Shown here piece by piece: positions 27,586-37,300 of a DNA stretch of 64,000 nt. The DNA lies in contig JAICLL010000003.1 of assembly GCA_025927475.1 (NCBI GenBank), positions 1 to 64,000 of the forward strand, read 5' to 3'. Position 1 is the stretch's first letter, and each line of letters starts with the position of its first letter. The notes below the pieces were generated by a model that was given only the letters and a program-made list of their open reading frames with translations, was not told the origin of the DNA and made no database searches. A program made the position numbers and the translations under genes. This DNA comes from Pirellulales bacterium (lineage in GTDB: Bacteria > Planctomycetota > Planctomycetia > Pirellulales > JAICIG01).

Positions 27586-27720
27586 CTCAACCACGCATCA
27601 ACATCGACCGTCGCTTTGTACACGCCAACGGCCTGCGGTTCGATGTGGCGACGGCGGGGCCGCCCGAATGTGCCGCTGGTGTTGCTGCTGCAGGGTTTTC
27701 CCGAGGTGTCAGTTCCGCTC
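27586..27720 (+). pseudogene. alpha/beta-hydrolase N-terminal remnant
   Basis: One frame reads RRFVHANGLRFDVATAGPPE and the next frame continues NVPLVLLLQGFPEV. Together these give the usual start of an epoxide-hydrolase-like alpha/beta hydrolase (strand, then the oxyanion HGFPE-type loop, here QGFPE). One extra base near 27669 breaks the frame. Nothing of the catalytic domain follows. A decayed fragment only. Confidence 0.6.
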
Positions 27721-27993
27721 ACAGCGCGCGTTTTGGCGCGCGGCTGTGCAGTAACATCGCCATCGCCCAATGCCCAGCAGCCCGTGTTTTCGGGCTACCT
27801 CGGTGGACAATGCTGCTCATGGCAACGGAGCGCCGGTGTGAAATCGATCAGGGCCTGTGATTTGCAATGCCCCCCGCAAAAGCAGTTGAAAAGAATCGAC
27901 CTTTCAGTACATCCTATAAGTATAAGGCGCCGCTTTGAATCGGTCGCTCCGAACGTGCGGCGTTTACTGACCCAGTTTCTCAGGAACGAAAAA
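27721..27993. other. non-coding stretch before the haem protein gene
   Basis: Nothing recognisable as a protein follows the hydrolase remnant. A small GC hairpin is formed by AGCCCGTGTTTTCGGGCT (27779–27796). The promoter of the next gene should be near the right end, where the sequence becomes AT-rich (27900–27990). Confidence 0.4.
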
Positions 27994-28620
27994 ATGCGTT
28001 GGAAGCTAGCGGCGAGTCTTTGCATGGTTGGCGTCGTGTCGGCGACGTTGCTGGTGGCCTTGGCCGTGTGCGAAGACACGCCAGGCGCGGCGGCTGCCAC
28101 GGCCCGTGGGGATGGCGCGAAAGCCGGGACCGGTGAGGCCGACGACACGCACGTGCCAGTGCCGCGCGTGCCCGTTGCCGTGGCGCGCGAGCGTGCCGAG
28201 TTGATGCACCGCATCTACGCCGCCACACTCGACATGCTGCATCACCGTTATTTTCACGACAGCCGCGCCATGGTGCCCGCCCGCGCCATGGAAGACGTGT
28301 TTGCCGAGATGGCCACGCAATCACAGGTCGAGGCCCATTGGATTGCGGTCAACATGCGGGCCATGAGCTTGAGCCACGAACCGAAGAACGAATTCGAAAA
28401 AGCCGCCGCCCAGGAAATCGCCGATGGCAAGGAGACTTATGAATTGGTTGAGAATGGCTATTATCGCCGCGCCGGCGCGATTCCGCTGGCCTCGGGCTGC
28501 GCCAACTGTCATGGAGGCTTTTTTAAAGAGCCGCCCAAGACGCCGCGCTTCGCCGCGCTGGTGATCAGTGTGCCGGTGCGGGAAACAGAGGGCGCCAGTC
28601 TTGACAAGCCCGCAAAATAG
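27994..28620 (+). CDS. periplasmic DUF3365-type haem protein
   Basis: 208 residues. ATG 27994 has AGGA about ten bases upstream. A signal peptide or anchor spans residues 4–26 (KLAASLCMVGVVSATLLVALAV). After a low-complexity linker there is a helical domain with ATLDMLHHRYFHDSRAMVPARAMEDVF, and a c-type haem site C169-A-N-C172-H173. DUF3365 domains are haem- or redox-sensing modules attached to the membrane. Here the domain stands alone, without a kinase or cyclase partner in the same protein. Role unknown. Confidence 0.75.
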   Translation: MRWKLAASLCMVGVVSATLLVALAVCEDTPGAAAATARGDGAKAGTGEADDTHVPVPRVPVAVARERAELMHRIYAATLDMLHHRYFHDSRAMVPARAMEDVFAEMATQSQVEAHWIAVNMRAMSLSHEPKNEFEKAAAQEIADGKETYELVENGYYRRAGAIPLASGCANCHGGFFKEPPKTPRFAALVISVPVRETEGASLDKPAK

Positions 28621-28659: not shown

Positions 28660-29700
28660 TCAGTTCCGCGCGAGCGCGCGGGACGCGAATTCCGCCTGCG
28701 TCGGCGAGAGCTGCTCGAGCGCGGTGGAGTCGATGTGCGTCTTGCAATCGATGAGCGCCGGCTGGATGCGGTCGGCTCCGGCTGAGTCGGCGCAAAACGT
28801 CGCGCCGAACAGCGAGGCGCCGCGTAGATCGGCCCCGCGCAAATCGGCGCCCGAAAAATCGGCGCCTTCCAAGCCGGCGCCGACCAGCGAAGCCTCGGCC
28901 AGGTCGGCACCCTGGAAGTGAGCGTTCGTAAGGTTGGCGCCGTCAAAACACGCCCGGCAAAGCCGGCTGCCGCGAAAGTCGGCATCGCGCAGCACCGCTT
29001 CGCGGGCATTGAGGCCGGTCAGATCATGGCCGCGGGCGTCGAGGCTCCGCAAGTTGCGCTGCGAAAAGTCGCGGCTGGCCAGCGCCGCTTGCACTTCTTG
29101 TCGTGAAAGATCGGGCGCCATGTACCGCTGTTCTTGCCAGGGGTCGGCGGTGTTGTGGTAGCCCCCTTCGCGCTCCCAATAGCCCAAACGGTCGTCGGCC
29201 AGCAACTCGATGCGCGCGAGCCATTTGAGGCTTTTGTAAAAATAGCGGCCTGGCACGGCCATGCGCACCGGCCCGCCATGCTCGCTCGTTAGTGGGCGAC
29301 TCTCGGCTTCCAGTGCCACGAGACTGTGTAATTTCAGGGCGTCGTCCAGCCGCAGCGAGGTGGAATGCCCGCGCTCGCTGCGCGCGACAAACGAGACATA
29401 TCGCGCCTCAGCCGTGGGACGAGCCAACTGCAGCAATTGACCCAGCGGCACGCCAGCAAACCGCATCGCCGGTTTAGACCAGCGCGTGACGCAATGGATA
29501 TCGATGGTTTGCGCGAGCTGGGGCATGTCGCGCAGCTCGGCCAGCGAGACGATGCGCGGTTCTGCCACGCAGCCGCAGAGCGAAATCGTCCAATCGGCGG
29601 GACCCGGCGCGGGCGCCCGCTCGCCCACCAGCGGCCATTTGCCGGGCGCGGCCAACTGTTGTCCGGGGGGAAGAGGTAACGGCTCCATTTCCGACAGCAT
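28660..29700 (-). CDS. molybdopterin oxidoreductase fused to pentapeptide repeats
   Basis: 346 residues. Residues about 35–195 form an MsrP/sulfite-oxidase-type molybdopterin domain: DIHCVTRWSKP with the Mo-ligand Cys70, FAGVPLGQLL, HGGPVRMAVPGRYFYKSLKW and GYWEREGGYHNTADPW. Residues about 212–302 are pentapeptide repeats (ADFSGADLRGADLRGASLFG) expected to make a right-handed beta-helix. No Tat or Sec signal is seen, unlike MsrP. The fusion suggests the repeat helix positions or dimerises the enzyme. The electron donor is not in the neighbourhood. Convergent with the DUF3365 gene. Confidence 0.8.
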   Translation of the reverse strand: MLSEMEPLPLPPGQQLAAPGKWPLVGERAPAPGPADWTISLCGCVAEPRIVSLAELRDMPQLAQTIDIHCVTRWSKPAMRFAGVPLGQLLQLARPTAEARYVSFVARSERGHSTSLRLDDALKLHSLVALEAESRPLTSEHGGPVRMAVPGRYFYKSLKWLARIELLADDRLGYWEREGGYHNTADPWQEQRYMAPDLSRQEVQAALASRDFSQRNLRSLDARGHDLTGLNAREAVLRDADFRGSRLCRACFDGANLTNAHFQGADLAEASLVGAGLEGADFSGADLRGADLRGASLFGATFCADSAGADRIQPALIDCKTHIDSTALEQLSPTQAEFASRALARN

Positions 29701-29765: not shown

Positions 29766-30449
29766 ATGGGGATGCCGGCGATTTTTTTTGGCTGTCCGCG
29801 TTGTGGAGCGACCGCTCAGATCGACAGTTCGATGGCGGGCCGCGAGACGCAATGCCCCCGTTGCGAACGCGCGGTGGTGGTGACCCCCCTGGGGCCGAAT
29901 GCGGCGCTCCAGCCCGGCGGAGCGGCGGTCGTGGGCGGGCCGCCGCCGGTCAGCGCGGGCCCGCCACGCGCGTCGGGCCCTCCACCGATCGCCGCTGGAA
30001 AACCGCCCTTGGCCGGCGCGATGCCTCCGCCCAGCGTGTTGCCCGCGGCCGGTCCGCCGCCCGTGGCTCGGAGCGTTCCGCCGGTGTTTTCGGCGGCGCC
30101 GCCGCGAGCGTCTGCCGCGCCTCCGATCGCGCCGGTTGCGCCTCCCATGGCATCGGTTGCGCCTCCCGCCACGTCGACGGTTCCGCCAGTTGCCGCGGCG
30201 GCCCCCGCAGCCGTGCCCATCATGGCGCCCAGGATCGCGCCGCTGGCAGCCCCATCAACCGCCGCGCCGGTCGCTCCCGCGGCCCGCAAACCGCAGACGT
30301 TGCCCGAGGAGCCCGGCGACCGTGCGCAGCGAAAACTCACCGAGGAAGAACGTCAGCACCGCCGCCTGCGGCGCAACATCATCACCGCTTCGCTTTGCCT
30401 GGCGGTGCTGCTGATCGTGATGGCAATCTTGCTAAAACTCGGCGGCTAG
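29766..30449 (+). CDS. zinc-ribbon, Pro/Ala-rich, tail-anchored membrane protein
   Basis: 227 residues. The N-terminal zinc ribbon has C10-x2-C13 and C30-x2-C33 (GCPRCGA, QCPRCER). Residues about 45–180 are Pro/Ala-rich low complexity. A charged stretch (RKLTEEERQHRRLRRN) leads to one C-terminal helix (about 204–225). The order resembles planctomycete proteins that span the cytoplasm to the membrane. Function unknown. The second Met (residue 3) is an alternative start. Confidence 0.65.
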   Translation: MGMPAIFFGCPRCGATAQIDSSMAGRETQCPRCERAVVVTPLGPNAALQPGGAAVVGGPPPVSAGPPRASGPPPIAAGKPPLAGAMPPPSVLPAAGPPPVARSVPPVFSAAPPRASAAPPIAPVAPPMASVAPPATSTVPPVAAAAPAAVPIMAPRIAPLAAPSTAAPVAPAARKPQTLPEEPGDRAQRKLTEEERQHRRLRRNIITASLCLAVLLIVMAILLKLGG

Positions 30450-31077: not shown

Positions 31078-32034
31078 ATGCCAGAGTCTCACGCGATGCC
31101 CGTTCGCGTCTTCGTAGTGGGCGACGAGGAGCGTGTGGTTTCGATGGTCCTTCGGCAGTGGGGCAACGAAGTCGACACCGTCGACGGACGTGCCTATCCT
31201 ATCTGCGAGGCCCGCCGATTTCAGCCCGACTTGGTGTTAATCGACATCGGGCAGCGCACCTTTGACGGCTGTGCTCATGTCCGGCGCTTTCGGCGCCGGG
31301 CCGAATTCGGCGCGATCCCCTTGGCCGTGTATGCCGATTTTCTTCAAAACGGAGGGCGCGTTCAAGTCGTTCCCACGGGTGGAGAAGGGCTAGCGACCAA
31401 GGCTCTGCCACCCGTCGAATTGGCTCGCGTACTTGATGAGATTCGGCAATTGATCGTGATTCCCAACGCCAACCTCCTCGAGCAAACGAAGTCGCTGGCG
31501 ATGCAAGCCAACGCTAGCCGGCAGGCGCTTGGCTCGACTCGCCGGACGCGTTGCATCGGGTCGCCGAAGAAGCGGTTTGCCCTGACCTACGATTCGCAAA
31601 TCACGCTGTCTCGCTCGCGACGCGTTGTTTTGTTCGAGCGACAGGGAGAGTCGTTGCACTCGATCGCCCCCTGTTTGAGGCGAATGGGGGCCGAAGTGCT
31701 GGACTGCGTTTCTCCCGACGAGTGCGTCGATTTCACGCGGCGATATGCCCCGGATTTCGTCGTTCTTAATAGCGGTCGGCCGGCATATCTCGGCTACGAG
31801 ATGGCCCGTCGGATTCAGCAAATCCCCGCCTCGAGCAACAGGCACGTGGTCCGCATCAGCAGCGCGGACGATTACATACAAGACTTTCTGGCGGCCGAAG
31901 TGGACATCGTCCGGCAATTGACCCGGCCGCTGCGAATTCAAGACCTCGTGAACGCTCTGCGCGAGCTGGAAGAATCGTTGGCCGAATGCAAGCCGCCTTT
32001 CACCGTACCAGGTGCTGCCCGCACAACAGGCTAA
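31078..32034 (+). CDS. double receiver-like protein, second domain lacks phospho-Asp
   Basis: 318 residues. Domain 1 (about 8–125) has a CheY-like layout with DLVLID56 at the acceptor position but no clear conserved Lys. Domain 2 (about 185–300) begins RRVVLFERQGESLHSIAPCLRRMG and has FVVLN231SG, so Asn replaces the acceptor Asp. A basic linker (STRRTRCIGSPKKRF) joins them. No output domain is present. It may act as a phosphorylation-independent adaptor or sink. No histidine kinase is nearby. The start is fixed by AAGGAGG. The 3' end overlaps the convergent DUF58 gene by 35 bases. Confidence 0.7.
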   Translation: MPESHAMPVRVFVVGDEERVVSMVLRQWGNEVDTVDGRAYPICEARRFQPDLVLIDIGQRTFDGCAHVRRFRRRAEFGAIPLAVYADFLQNGGRVQVVPTGGEGLATKALPPVELARVLDEIRQLIVIPNANLLEQTKSLAMQANASRQALGSTRRTRCIGSPKKRFALTYDSQITLSRSRRVVLFERQGESLHSIAPCLRRMGAEVLDCVSPDECVDFTRRYAPDFVVLNSGRPAYLGYEMARRIQQIPASSNRHVVRISSADDYIQDFLAAEVDIVRQLTRPLRIQDLVNALRELEESLAECKPPFTVPGAARTTG

Positions 32035-33307
32035 TTGACGCCTCATCGGTCACTCGGCGCGACTCAATGCCTTGGGCCAAAAGCCGCCCGGCATAATCCT
32101 CGAACTCGAAATCGTCGAACACCACCAGCACGACCACCACCGCATGACCGCGGCGGCGCAGAATGCCCAACGCCAACGCCGTCTCGGGCTCGACCCGGGC
32201 CAGCACCGCCACCACCGTGGCGTCGCGCGGCAAGCGGCTGGTGCTCTCGGCCAGAAGCTGGCTGAACGACAAGCCATCGGTCAACTCGACTCGCGCGAGT
32301 GTCTCCAGAATGCGCCAAAGCTGCTCGGGGCCTTGCCGCGTGGGCACGAGCACGGGCCGCAGCCGCTCGCTTTGCTCAACCATGTTCACATTGGCCTGCG
32401 CGGCGGATCGCGTGCGATAATCGTGCGACCAGCCTTCTTGCCGAATGCGGTCGGCGGCATCGCGGCCATTGGTCACCAGCCCGATCTGTTGCCCCATCAG
32501 ATAGACTTCGTTGGCGATCGAGGCCGCCGTGGTCACCGCCAGCTCAGAACGCAGCGGTTCGTTGCTTTTTGGATAGTCATCGCGATGAAATCCCATCACC
32601 ACGGTGGCGCCGGCAATCGTCGAGGGTTCGTAGATCTTGCTGTGCAAAACGCCGGTTCGGGCGGTGGCGCGCCAGTTGACGCGATTGAGCGGATCTCCCT
32701 CTTGATACAGCCGCAGACCCGCGATGCGCGTGGGGTCCTCAAACAGCCGGTGCGTGAGGCGAATTTCGCCCACGGGCCGCCGTGAAGCCAGGTCGTAGCC
32801 GGCCAGAGGCACCAATCGCGGGTAGACCAGCACAAAGTGCGGCTCCGTCGCCACGCGATAGCGTCGATGCAGGCCGAACAAATCGCCGGTTTCGACCACC
32901 ACCGGGCCGATCTGATAATAGCCGCGCATCTGGAACTCAACCTGGTAGAGCATGGTCTTCTGCCCGCCGCGCCAGAGCATGCCGATCATCAGCCGTCGGT
33001 TGTGAACCTTCAGCCGCGGCGGGCGCTGCACCAGGGCCTGCCGCGGCAAGCTGTCTTCGACCAGCACCCAGGCCACCGGCAGCCCGCCGCCGTTGCGCAC
33101 TTGAACGGCCACGCCCAGCTTGTCGCCGATTTCGGCGGTCAGACGGTTGCACTCGCGCGTGGCCGTGAGATGGTCGATCCAATAGCGAGCGACGAACCGG
33201 CTGACCAGCATCACGCCCAGCAGCACATACATGGCGTAGGCCAGCAATCCCAGCCCGAACACCAGCGACACGATCAACACCGCAATCGCGCCGAGATACC
33301 ACCTCAT
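32000..33307 (-). CDS. DUF58 membrane-anchored protein
   Basis: 435 residues. Two N-terminal hydrophobic helices (about 4–45) precede a beta-domain. The DUF58 signature follows at about 190–235: LRLYQEGDPLNRVNWRATAR, then LHSKIYEP. A vWA-like C-terminal half follows. DUF58 proteins are encoded beside MoxR ATPases and are thought to be their client or adaptor. ATG 33307 overlaps the moxR stop as ATGA. No vWA/BatA-like genes follow in the window, so this is a minimal two-gene version. Confidence 0.88.
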   Translation of the reverse strand: MRWYLGAIAVLIVSLVFGLGLLAYAMYVLLGVMLVSRFVARYWIDHLTATRECNRLTAEIGDKLGVAVQVRNGGGLPVAWVLVEDSLPRQALVQRPPRLKVHNRRLMIGMLWRGGQKTMLYQVEFQMRGYYQIGPVVVETGDLFGLHRRYRVATEPHFVLVYPRLVPLAGYDLASRRPVGEIRLTHRLFEDPTRIAGLRLYQEGDPLNRVNWRATARTGVLHSKIYEPSTIAGATVVMGFHRDDYPKSNEPLRSELAVTTAASIANEVYLMGQQIGLVTNGRDAADRIRQEGWSHDYRTRSAAQANVNMVEQSERLRPVLVPTRQGPEQLWRILETLARVELTDGLSFSQLLAESTSRLPRDATVVAVLARVEPETALALGILRRRGHAVVVVLVVFDDFEFEDYAGRLLAQGIESRRVTDEASISLLCGQHLVR

Positions 33308-34266
33308 GAGGCGGCGGCTCCTTTGGCGGTCGTCGGCACCGGCACTTCAGCCAACACGTCTTCGACCACCTTGGCGGCGCTGACGCGCCGCAGCCGGCTT
33401 TCGGGCTTCAGCACCAGCCGATGCGTGAGCACCGGCGCGGCCATGCGTTTGACATCGTCGGGCAACACAAAGTTGTTGCCGCGCATCGCCGCCACCGCTT
33501 GCGAGGTGCGGAACAGCGCCAGCGATGCCCGAGGACTGCCGCCCAGGGCCACGTCGTCGTGCAACCGTGTGCTTTGCACGATTTCGAGCACGTAATTGCG
33601 TACCTTTTCGTCGACGTACACTTCGCGCACCGCCTGCTGACAGGCGATCACGTCGGCCGGCGCCACCACCGGCTCGATCTGCTCGATCGGATGGCCTCGT
33701 TGCAGCCGTTCGAGCATCTTGCCTTCGTCTTCGAAGCTGGGATAGCCCAGGCTGAGGCGGACCAGAAAGCGGTCGAGTTGCGCTTCGGGCAGCGGGAACG
33801 TGCCTTCATGATCGACCGGGTTCTGTGTGGCGATGACCATGAAGGGCCGCTCCAGGTCGTAGGTCTGGCCGTCGACGGTCACGCGGCTTTCGGCCATCGC
33901 CTCCAGCAGGGCCGACTGGGTGCGGGGCGTGGCCCGGTTGATTTCGTCGGCCAACACAATCTGCGCGAAGATCGGCCCCGGGCGAAAGACGAATTCGGCC
34001 TCTTTCTGATTGAAGATCGAGGCGCCGGTGATGTCGGAAGGCAAGAGGTCGGGTGTGCACTGCACGCGCTTGAACGCGCAATCGATGCTGCGGGCCAGCG
34101 CGCGGGCGAGCATCGTTTTGGCCACGCCGGGCACGTCTTCCAGCAGAATGTGCCCTTCGCAAAGATACGCCACCATCGCCAGCAGCAACTCTTGCCGCTT
34201 GCCCAGGATGACCTTCTCGACGTTGCCGATAATTTTTTTGGCGACTGCGCTGACGTTGGTAGACAT
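33304..34266 (-). CDS. MoxR-family AAA+ ATPase
   Basis: 320 residues. Walker A EDVPGVAKTMLARALA (about 40–55), Walker B IVLADEINRATPRTQSALLEAM and sensor MVIATQNPVDHEGTFPLPEAQ followed by DRFL are all canonical for MoxR. It acts as a chaperone-like ATPase on partner complexes. The true start is ATG 34266 (MSTNVSAVAKK); the frame is open further upstream to 34527 but with non-family sequence. Coupled to the DUF58 gene. Confidence 0.92.
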   Translation of the reverse strand: MSTNVSAVAKKIIGNVEKVILGKRQELLLAMVAYLCEGHILLEDVPGVAKTMLARALARSIDCAFKRVQCTPDLLPSDITGASIFNQKEAEFVFRPGPIFAQIVLADEINRATPRTQSALLEAMAESRVTVDGQTYDLERPFMVIATQNPVDHEGTFPLPEAQLDRFLVRLSLGYPSFEDEGKMLERLQRGHPIEQIEPVVAPADVIACQQAVREVYVDEKVRNYVLEIVQSTRLHDDVALGGSPRASLALFRTSQAVAAMRGNNFVLPDDVKRMAAPVLTHRLVLKPESRLRRVSAAKVVEDVLAEVPVPTTAKGAAAS

Positions 34267-34337
34267 GGCAGCGCCATTATGCCTTGCCGCGCCGCGGGTT
34301 CCTAGTGGCCTAGGTAAGCCGCCAACCGAATGCACGC

Positions 34338-37300
34338 TCAGTTTCGATTGATGTTGAGCATGGGCAATACCTGACGCAGCTCGGCAATGGCGTCGTCGGT
34401 CACGGCGGTCTTGCTCAAGTTGACCCAACGCAATGAGGCAATGCCGCGCAGCTCTTGCAGGCCGCGGTTGGTCACCTTCGTGCCGTCGAGCGACAGACTC
34501 TGCAAACGGGGCATGCCTTGCAGCCACGCCAACCCAGCGTCGCCCACGGCGGTGTTGCTCAGCCGCAGAGTGGACAACGAAGCGGCTTGACGCAGGTGCT
34601 TCAGCCCGGCGTCGGAGATCTGAGTTGAAGAAACATCGAGATTGCTCAATTGCGGCAGCGTCGCCAGTTGGGCCAGCCCCGCATCGCCAAAGGAAGAGTT
34701 TTTGAGGCTAAGCCGCCGCAATTGCAACAGCCGCGCGAGCTGCTTTGCGCCCGCATCGCCAATTCCGCGCGATTCGGCGGTCAGCGTCGTCAACGAGGCG
34801 TGCCTGAGAAGGTGTGCCAGTCCGTCGTCGGTTACGGTACACTCGCCAAGTTCGAGTTCTTCGAGCTGATCGAGCGGGTCGAGATGCGCCAATCCGGCGT
34901 CGCCCACCCGCGGGCCCCAGAGAATTAAGACTTTCAAGCTTGTCAAGCCGCTGATAGGAGCCAGTGTGGCGTCGGTCAGGTTCGGGCAAGTCAGCCGCAG
35001 ACGGCGAAGCGACCGCAACTCGGCCAGAAACGCCATTGCCTCGTCCGCCACCTGTGGTCCCGAGATATCGAGTTCTTCCAGACGTTTCAGCCGCCCGACG
35101 GGCCGCAAGCCCTCGGCAGAAAGATTGATTTGCCAAAGATTCAACTTGCGGAGATCGGCAAACTGATCGAGCGGGCTGAGATCGGTGATGGGGATGTCGT
35201 TCAGTTGCAGCGACGTCAAGCTTTTCAGCGCGGTCAGTTGCTCGAGTCCTCGATCGGTGGTTTTGGTTCTCAGCAGCGTCAGCTCGAGGAGACTGGTCAT
35301 CTCCGCCAGTTGCTGCATGCCCGCGTCGGTCACGTTGGGGCAGTTCCAGAAGTTGATCGAGCGAAGGTAAGGCAGCTCTTTGAGCAGACGCACGGTTTGA
35401 TCGGTCACTTGCGGACCTTGCAGCATCACCCCGCCGGGCACGTTCGATCCCGGCGAAAAATTGTGGTTAAACCTCGCGCCTTGGGTTTGCAGTTCGGCGG
35501 CGGCCGCCGCCATTTGCGCGGTTGGCTCGAACGCCAGGGCGGCGCCGCGCCCTTGCGCCACGGGATTGTTCAGCGGAAATCCAATTCGCATTTCCGCCGA
35601 ACGCCGGGCGGCCCGCGTCGTCGCACGGGTGCGGGAGCCGGTGATCACCGCCACTTTCTTGCCTTCACGGAAGCGGTCGACGCCCGACCCGGTGACGCGC
35701 GTGCCCGACGCCCGCACTTGCTGCAGCGACTTGAGCTTCTTGAGCCGCAGCAATCCCTTATCGCCGACTTCGCTGCCCTCCAGCGAAAGCCTACGCAGAT
35801 GGCGCAGTTGGGCGATCGCCGACATGCTGCGGTCGCTGACCTTCGTGCCGTCGAGCACCAACTCTTCCAATGCCGGGGAGCGAAGCTGCGACAACCCTGG
35901 GCCCGCAACCTGGGTGTTCGAAAGATCGAGCAGCTTGAGGTTCTGCAAGCCATGCAGGTGTTTCAATGCGGGATCGCCGATGGGCAGGTTGGTCAGGCGC
36001 AAAGTCGCCAGCTCGGTCAGGTCAGTCAGGCTTTCCAGCCCGGCGTCGCTGATTGCCGCACGGTCGATGGTCAATTCGGTGAGCAGCGTCAGCGGCTTCA
36101 GATAGGCAAGCGCCGGATCGCCGATTCGCTTGCCGCGCAGCTCGAGTCGGCGAAGCGTCGTCAACGTTTGAATAAACTCCAGGTCGGCATCGGTGGCGTC
36201 GTCATTATCGACGCGCAGGCTGATGGGCGTTTTTTCTTGTGTGCCCTTTTCGGCCATCAGCCGGCCGCGCACCTTGCGCACCGCCGCAGCCACATCGAGC
36301 GCCGCCGGTTGAACGGGCATGGGCTCCGGCGATGGCCGAGGCGGTTCCGGATCTGGCTGGGGTGGCGCTGGCGGCGATGCCGCAAGTTGTGCAGGATCGC
36401 CGTCGATCGTCAGACGCGGCAAGGCGGCCTGTAACCTGGCCACGCCGGCCGAGCTCACGGGCGTGTTTTTGAGCACCAAATGTTCCAGATGGCTCAGTCG
36501 ATGCAATGCCGGCAAGGCGGCGTCTGTCACAGGAAGCCCTTGCAGACAAAGCCAGCTCAAGTCGGCCAGTTGGGCCAGCCGTGGCAAGCCGGCGTCAGTC
36601 ACCTTGGTGTATTGCAGGTTCAGCACGCGCAGCTCGCGCAGGCGGGCCAGCGACTCGAGCCCGGCGTCGCTCACCGCGGTGCTGGAGAGATCGAGCCAGT
36701 TGAGGTGGACCAGCAGTTCAAGGTGCCGCAGCCCCTGGTTGGTGACGCGCGTTTCAGCGAGATTGAGCGCTTCGAGTTGAGGCAACGCAGTAAGAGCTTG
36801 CAGTCCTTGATCTCCGATAGGCGTGCCATTCAGCCCAAGCGATCGCAGACTTTCCAGCGGCCGCAACCGCGCAAGGTCGTCGTCGGAAAGCTGCTGACCT
36901 GACAAATCGATCCTGGTCAATGCTTGGCTGGCCGGATCGCGCTCGAGCCGGGCGCCGGCTTGCTCCAGCCAGGCCATCGCGTCGTCGCGCGGCGATGGCG
37001 CGAGCGGCGCGGACGGCGAACCATGGGTCTCAGTCGCCATCGGTTCCGCAGGCGACGCCGCGCGGGGCGGCGAAGGTGAGTTGGCTGGTTCAACCGTCAG
37101 CTGGGCGTGGGACGAACGCGATTGCTCGGAAGTTGCTGGATCTGCCGGCGTGGCTTGAGATGTCGACCGAGCCGTGTCAGACGACATCTTCGCCAACAAC
37201 AGCGCAATGCCGCCTGCGGCGAAACCCGCGACGACGACGGCCAAGGCCGGTTTGGGCAATCGCTTGCGAGCCGGGCGGGAAGTTTGGGCCGACGCCACGG

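Follow-up and report, generated by a model that had tools for sequence, protein, structure and literature searches.

A sulfite-oxidase-family molybdopterin domain fused to a pentapeptide-repeat solenoid in planctomycetes and other bacterial phyla

The methionine sulfoxide reductase MsrP (YedY) acts in the periplasm and belongs to the sulfite oxidase family. The same family has a cytoplasmic branch with, to our knowledge, no known function, of which we take B. subtilis YuiH to be a named member. In PMC7759655, uncharacterized single-subunit cytoplasmic enzymes form the third group of the family, and PMC8945050 treats Deinococcus DR_0716, a cytoplasmic COG2041 protein, as uncharacterized, with methionine sulfoxide (MetO) reductase activity suggested and left open. 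Regarding pentapeptide repeat proteins (PRPs), a review (PMC8145042) states that a biochemical role is known for very few pentapeptide domains, and it contains no mention of “molyb,” “fused,” or “oxidoreductase.” Here, we describe a protein in which these two kinds of module are joined.

The window (i.e., the whole stretch of DNA that was analyzed) comprises 64,000 nt of a Pirellulales bacterium genome (GenBank assembly GCA_025927475.1, contig JAICLL010000003.1, positions 1 to 64,000). The fused gene lies on its reverse strand at 28660..29700 (ATG at 29700, stop codon at 28660-28662) and encodes 346 amino acids in an open reading frame (ORF) with no internal stops, a full length that is kept in relatives. 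The first part is a sulfite-oxidase-family molybdopterin domain (PF00174, Oxidored_molyb; residues 33-175; 29176..29604, reverse strand), identified by Pfam (E 1.4e-32, 113 bits vs. a cutoff of 24) and by matches of the structural model to 1xdy/1xdq and sulfite dehydrogenases. The second is a pentapeptide-repeat solenoid (PF00805, Pentapeptide; residues 210-304; 28789..29073, reverse strand), recognized by Pfam (E 3.5e-19, 68.4 bits vs. a cutoff of 20.2), by repeat register, and by DSSP of the model. A C-terminal helical cap follows (residues 305-346; 28663..28788, reverse strand; helices 325-329 and 333-344), in which L331 and Q335 are conserved. Pfam detects no heme, flavin, or other redox domain in the protein; electrons would thus be expected to pass through a separate partner.

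The first-pass annotation had read this ORF as a fusion, a reading upheld by the intact frame, the two Pfam domains, and the relatives with the same architecture. It had also allowed that a base error at the junction might conceal two separate genes. Such an error is excluded because the same fusion occurs in dozens of other genomes. We therefore give almost no credence to the idea that two genes were brought together here by a base error or by chance read-through: the same junction occurs in 77 rows of the catalytic-domain tree (see below), each of the 70 members of alignment A2 (window protein plus 69 loci) has both PF00174 and PF00805, and the codon-position base composition is steady across the domain junction.

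To what extent is the catalytic part related to MsrP? The best Foldseek matches of the model are 1xdy and 1xdq (both MsrP), MsrP is also the top sequence match of the catalytic part among solved structures, and the SUOX fold of the model gives VIA Z scores of 15-21 to solved family members (17-21 for most sulfite dehydrogenases). The initial label “MsrP-like” is thus apt for the fold, but does not extend to membership. All 70 relatives reach the NCBIfam MsrP equivalog model at an E-value of 0.001, and the window protein, the only one for which scores were set against cutoffs, has 69.8 bits versus the 207 required; in addition, it carries Cys-Val-Thr at the ligand cysteine versus Cys-Val-Glu in MsrP. 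Neither an arginine pair near the N terminus nor a 12-residue hydrophobic stretch occurs in any of the 20 full-length proteins examined by a simple measure (Kyte-Doolittle mean > 1.5 over 12 residues, plus Arg-Arg) that involves no signal-peptide predictor; to this extent, the annotated lack of an export signal is borne out. Membership of MsrP was rejected on the basis of the score, the Thr at Cys+2, and the absence by this simple test of a Tat signal. Also rejected was membership of SorA (30.8 bits vs. a cutoff of 600), SorT (25.7 vs. 570), and SoxC (40.2 vs. 420), given that these NCBIfam scores are far below the cutoffs and the ligand-Cys motif differs. There is no Pfam match to the C-terminal Mo-co dimerization domain, and the corresponding stretch is pentapeptide repeat. 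The window protein probably fits the uncharacterized cytoplasmic single-subunit group; the comparison is with the description in PMC7759655, which gives no sequences.

These comparisons bear directly on one possible function, that of a cytoplasmic MetO reductase acting on oxidized proteins much as MsrP does, with the solenoid as an arm that presents the substrate protein. We consider this unlikely given that all 77 fused rows carry Thr in place of the MsrP Glu at Cys+2, the MsrP score is below the cutoff, and no Tat signal was detected by the simple test, although MsrP leads both the structural and the sequence comparisons and a potential MetO activity has been proposed for DR_0716 (PMC8945050). 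A presenting arm would also be in keeping with PMC8145042, in which the few direct functions known for pentapeptide domains are mostly macromolecule binding.

The Mo-ligand position is occupied by Cys70 (29491..29493, reverse strand) within the motif H69-C-V-T-R-W74. It aligns, in the solved-structure sequence comparison, with the Mo-ligand cysteine of MsrP. As first annotated, this residue is kept: all 77 fused and all 27 stand-alone relatives have Cys here (two further rows, L126 and L148, discussed below, were excluded from all fused/stand-alone residue counts). Invariant or near-invariant in both sets are H69, C70, V71, T72, W74, G83, G142, P144, R146, K156, S157, K159, W160, W175, E176, Y181, H182, D186, and R192, and because these catalytic invariants are common to fused and stand-alone relatives, activity has probably been kept. 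Three positions distinguish the fused proteins: H112 (all 77 fused rows, against W, Y, or F in the 27 stand-alones), S115 (74 of 77; N in all 27), and Y155 (76 of 77; W in all 27). This pattern suggests a pocket or interface peculiar to the fused proteins. The host encodes MoaA, and thus makes molybdopterin; its genome has six PF00174 loci in all.

Structure prediction, which had been recommended at the outset, yielded a model that is confident for both domains. AlphaFold2 gave a pLDDT of 89 and pTM of 0.80 with 20 sequences, and 95.1 and 0.89, respectively, with 70 sequences, in each case modeling a single chain. With a linker pLDDT near 90-95 in the 70-sequence model, the relative placement of the two domains is probably fixed. 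For the first model, Foldseek and VIA matched the first part to MsrP and sulfite dehydrogenases and the second to pentapeptide proteins, the latter predicted to be a quadrilateral beta-helix, with VIA Z scores of 14-19 against solved PRPs. DSSP of the model places one bridge per five residues in the solenoid. The range of residues originally given for the repeats (212–302) was right, but their number is 19 rather than about 18, with centers at 212, 217 ... 302 in one unbroken register; at least eight contiguous repeats is the number set for PRPs. In the model, two short helices cap the solenoid after repeat 19. Qnr/MfpA-like gyrase protection was considered and rejected because the NCBIfam scores (25.6 bits vs. 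a cutoff of 240 for Qnr, 27.1 vs. 360 for MfpA) are far too low, and the window protein is under all cutoffs for the HetL, Alr5209, Qnr, and MfpA models.

One coil of such a solenoid is made of four repeats (PMC8145042), so every fourth repeat lies on the same face. The face formed by repeats 217, 237, 257, 277, and 297 has a mean entropy for outward residues of 1.31 bits, versus 2.19-2.52 for the other three faces. Its most conserved stretch runs from N256 to G279 (28864..28935, reverse strand): across 70 rows, N256 and G279 never vary, and conservation reaches 97% at each of D276 and E278 (the window protein has Gly at 276). When single positions were shuffled, the signal was matched in 4 of 10,000 trials. 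Shuffling whole repeats is the fairer control, and by this measure the signal is moderate: out of 20,000 trials each, 538 matched it with all rows, 68 with the 44 planctomycete-type rows, and 366 with the remaining 26. All of these statistics ignore kinship among rows. The pattern has a period of four repeats and is absent at periods of three and five in both subsets. This conserved face, one of four on the solenoid, is a new observation and points to a putative docking surface that includes N256, E278, and G279.

A domain-architecture search, as proposed in the first-pass annotation, found that the fusion recurs. In a protein search, 173 of the 397 genomes of the class had a match, 20 of them near full length (window genome included; 43-62% identity for the 19 others). 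Most of the remaining matches among those listed end at about residues 190-215 and represent stand-alone relatives of ~200 amino acids; a few extend to 217-258, and most of these are read-through frames. When the alignment was searched against the phylum (392 genomes), 100 genomes matched at E ≤ 1e-40, 11 of them over most of the length. Genome contigs were also scanned, and among the best 80 of 504 loci (ranked by similarity to the fused query, which favors fused proteins), 69 have both parts and 11 have the catalytic part alone (L126-L136). In one of these 11 (L126), the frame runs off the contig edge. Hosts identifiable by name among these 80 loci include Rhodopirellula europaea, R. rubra, Stieleria sedimenti, and Nevskia bins. 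It had been allowed that the architecture might be common and already described: it is common across phyla, but we found no published description of the pairing (subscription papers were outside the search, and protein databases may list the architecture). Two unusual arrangements were seen in passing. On a contig labeled Pseudomonadales, a 480-amino-acid open frame has DUF454 (PF04304) ahead of the molybdopterin and pentapeptide parts, possibly a triple fusion (L098:7572-9011), and one Terrabacteria contig has catalytic-domain matches in three consecutive ORFs (L136:7962-11175).

In a tree of 106 catalytic domains (identical rows were removed beforehand), the 77 fused rows form one clade with SH-aLRT support of 98, although this and the other tree used here are quick trees with many open forks. 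The only solenoid-less row within the clade is L126. The nearest row outside it is the stand-alone L148, and the other 27 stand-alones, a small sample from a scan that favors fused proteins, fall on the far side. Because all fused rows are in one supported clade and the sole solenoid-less row within it is truncated by a contig end, the fusion arose once and has been kept since. No loss was seen, though rare losses may be missed in a sample biased toward fused proteins. The pairing of domain and solenoid appears to be old. The deeper branches include Acidobacteriota, Verrucomicrobiota, Actinomycetota, Chloroflexota, Nevskia, and further planctomycete groups, mostly as metagenome bins. Several rows labeled Armatimonadetes, Binatota, Fraserbacteria, Alphaproteobacteria, Pseudomonadales, and Myxococcota nest among the planctomycetes, perhaps through transfer or the misbinning of contigs; the claim that the fusion occurs in several phyla therefore rests on the separate deeper branches.

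In 12 of 79 fused loci, all planctomycete, fae and then mtdB lie upstream on the same strand, and the gap from the end of mtdB to the conserved core is 31-130 nt in seven of the 12, 339-424 nt in two, and 957-1324 nt in three. This link is newly noted, and it makes a connection to formaldehyde (C1) metabolism no more than a lead. On a tree of 56 rows, 51 of which can be scored (12 with the adjacency and 39 without, including four outgroup rows), the adjacency requires six changes, whereas each of 500 shuffles needed more; a single ancient gain would be compatible with it. The same picture would result from slow decay of gene order, however, and the adjacency is absent from the window genome, in which fae is ~78 kb away on the same contig. 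Co-occurrence with Fae was rejected as evidence: it is uninformative because 372 of the 397 genomes of the class have Fae. With no fae-mtdB neighbor found among the genes scanned beyond the planctomycete-type loci, we think it quite improbable that the protein is a molybdoenzyme of formaldehyde/H4MPT one-carbon metabolism in which the solenoid holds a partner.

A second type of neighbor, a gene for ~600 amino acids, occurs downstream on the same strand and within 463 nt at nine planctomycete loci. The two that were scanned (L081, L054) encode Cys/Met-metabolism PLP enzymes, and at two loci the 3′ end of the fused gene shares 4 nt with a gene of ~590 amino acids (L054:9821-11596, one of those scanned, and L090:8996-10774). 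Along with the fold, for which most sulfite dehydrogenases give Z scores of 17-21, this arrangement could indicate a cytoplasmic enzyme that oxidizes sulfite to clear it from sulfur amino-acid or sulfonate metabolism. The PLP neighbor is confined to a few planctomycete branches, however, and the protein scores far below the SorA, SorT, and SoxC cutoffs, lacks their dimerization domain, and does not have the Cys-Ala-Gly that sulfite oxidases carry at the ligand cysteine, so that this function is also improbable.

Beyond the planctomycete-type loci, no common neighbor was found among 20 Pfam-scanned genes of 116 (three of the 20 are from L086, labeled Phycisphaeraceae, and L089, labeled Armatimonadetes). 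These neighbors vary by clade (HhH-GPD, cation efflux, FAD oxidase, Trp/Tyr tRNA synthetase, Usp, and others), and six of the 20 have no Pfam match. At two related loci (L100:7295-7951 and L117:7311-7967), an HhH-GPD base-excision repair gene is immediately upstream of the fused gene. In the window itself, a Tll0287-like protein (PF11845) with a CxNCH heme motif is encoded at 27616-28620 on the forward strand, in convergent orientation to the fused gene across a 40-nt gap. It was dropped as a candidate partner as no recurring cluster (at least four loci) was recognized among related loci. A zinc-ribbon protein (29766-30449) was also set aside; a zinc-ribbon cluster (representative L068) is found in four of 79 loci. 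Elsewhere in the window are a gene for a HypA nickel metallochaperone (PF01155; 24893-25387, reverse strand) and, at 32000-34527 (reverse strand), a DUF58 gene beside a MoxR-type AAA ATPase gene.

The explanation that we favor, and consider reasonably probable, builds on the two domains, the single fusion origin, the fixed architecture, the conserved cofactor-binding site, and the one conserved face established by sequence and model. In this explanation, the protein is a single-subunit molybdoenzyme of the sulfite oxidase family that works in the cytoplasm and has its catalytic domain permanently linked to a pentapeptide solenoid, which serves as an assembly module. Mo-molybdopterin would be bound via Cys70, and the enzyme would carry out a two-electron oxo-transfer in the cytoplasm, its substrate being a small oxidized or reduced compound of sulfur (or nitrogen). 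The solenoid and its C-terminal helical cap would act as a rigid module occupying the place of the C-terminal dimerization domain of sulfite oxidases, with the conserved face docking on the catalytic domain, a second subunit, or the electron partner. The solenoid can also be there for mere stabilization. A bolder version, in which the solenoid replaced the dimerization domain and the N256/E278/G279 face couples oxo-transfer to another enzyme, in planctomycetes Fae-MtdB, strikes us as a long shot.

The interest of the fusion lies in its testable conserved face and in the tie, made once and found across phyla, between two modules of unknown function, the cytoplasmic sulfite oxidase branch and the pentapeptide domain. 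Whatever binds the conserved face should indicate the role of the enzyme. We know of no pentapeptide-repeat domain with a defined role in redox catalysis; should the bolder version hold, the solenoid would be the first. Deletion and pull-down experiments look feasible because named isolates (Rhodopirellula europaea, R. rubra, and Stieleria sedimenti) carry the fusion.

Overall, the fused protein is neither a categorically new system nor an isolated curiosity. It represents a genuine, conserved, single-origin subfamily, probably within an uncharacterized branch of the sulfite oxidase family, to which a solenoid has been added. With MsrP, it shares the fold, the cofactor-binding core, the position of the Cys ligand, and the absence of a dimerization domain, whereas MsrP has a Tat signal and CVE at the ligand (1xdq), and the window protein has CVT, a solenoid, and a sub-cutoff score. 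SorA, SorT, SoxC, and SUOX have the same SUOX fold (Z 15-21), but sulfite oxidases and dehydrogenases have both Cys-Ala-Gly at the ligand cysteine and a C-terminal dimerization domain, and the window protein has neither. Pentapeptide repeat proteins such as HetL, Alr5209, thylakoid PRPs, Qnr, and MfpA differ in that the solenoid here is joined to a redox enzyme. Its likeness to the cytoplasmic group lies in the single catalytic domain, a predicted cytoplasmic location, and an invariant set nearly identical to that of the stand-alone proteins of ~200 amino acids; the fused proteins differ from these by a fixed solenoid at the C terminus and by H112/S115/Y155 in place of (W,Y,F)/N/W.
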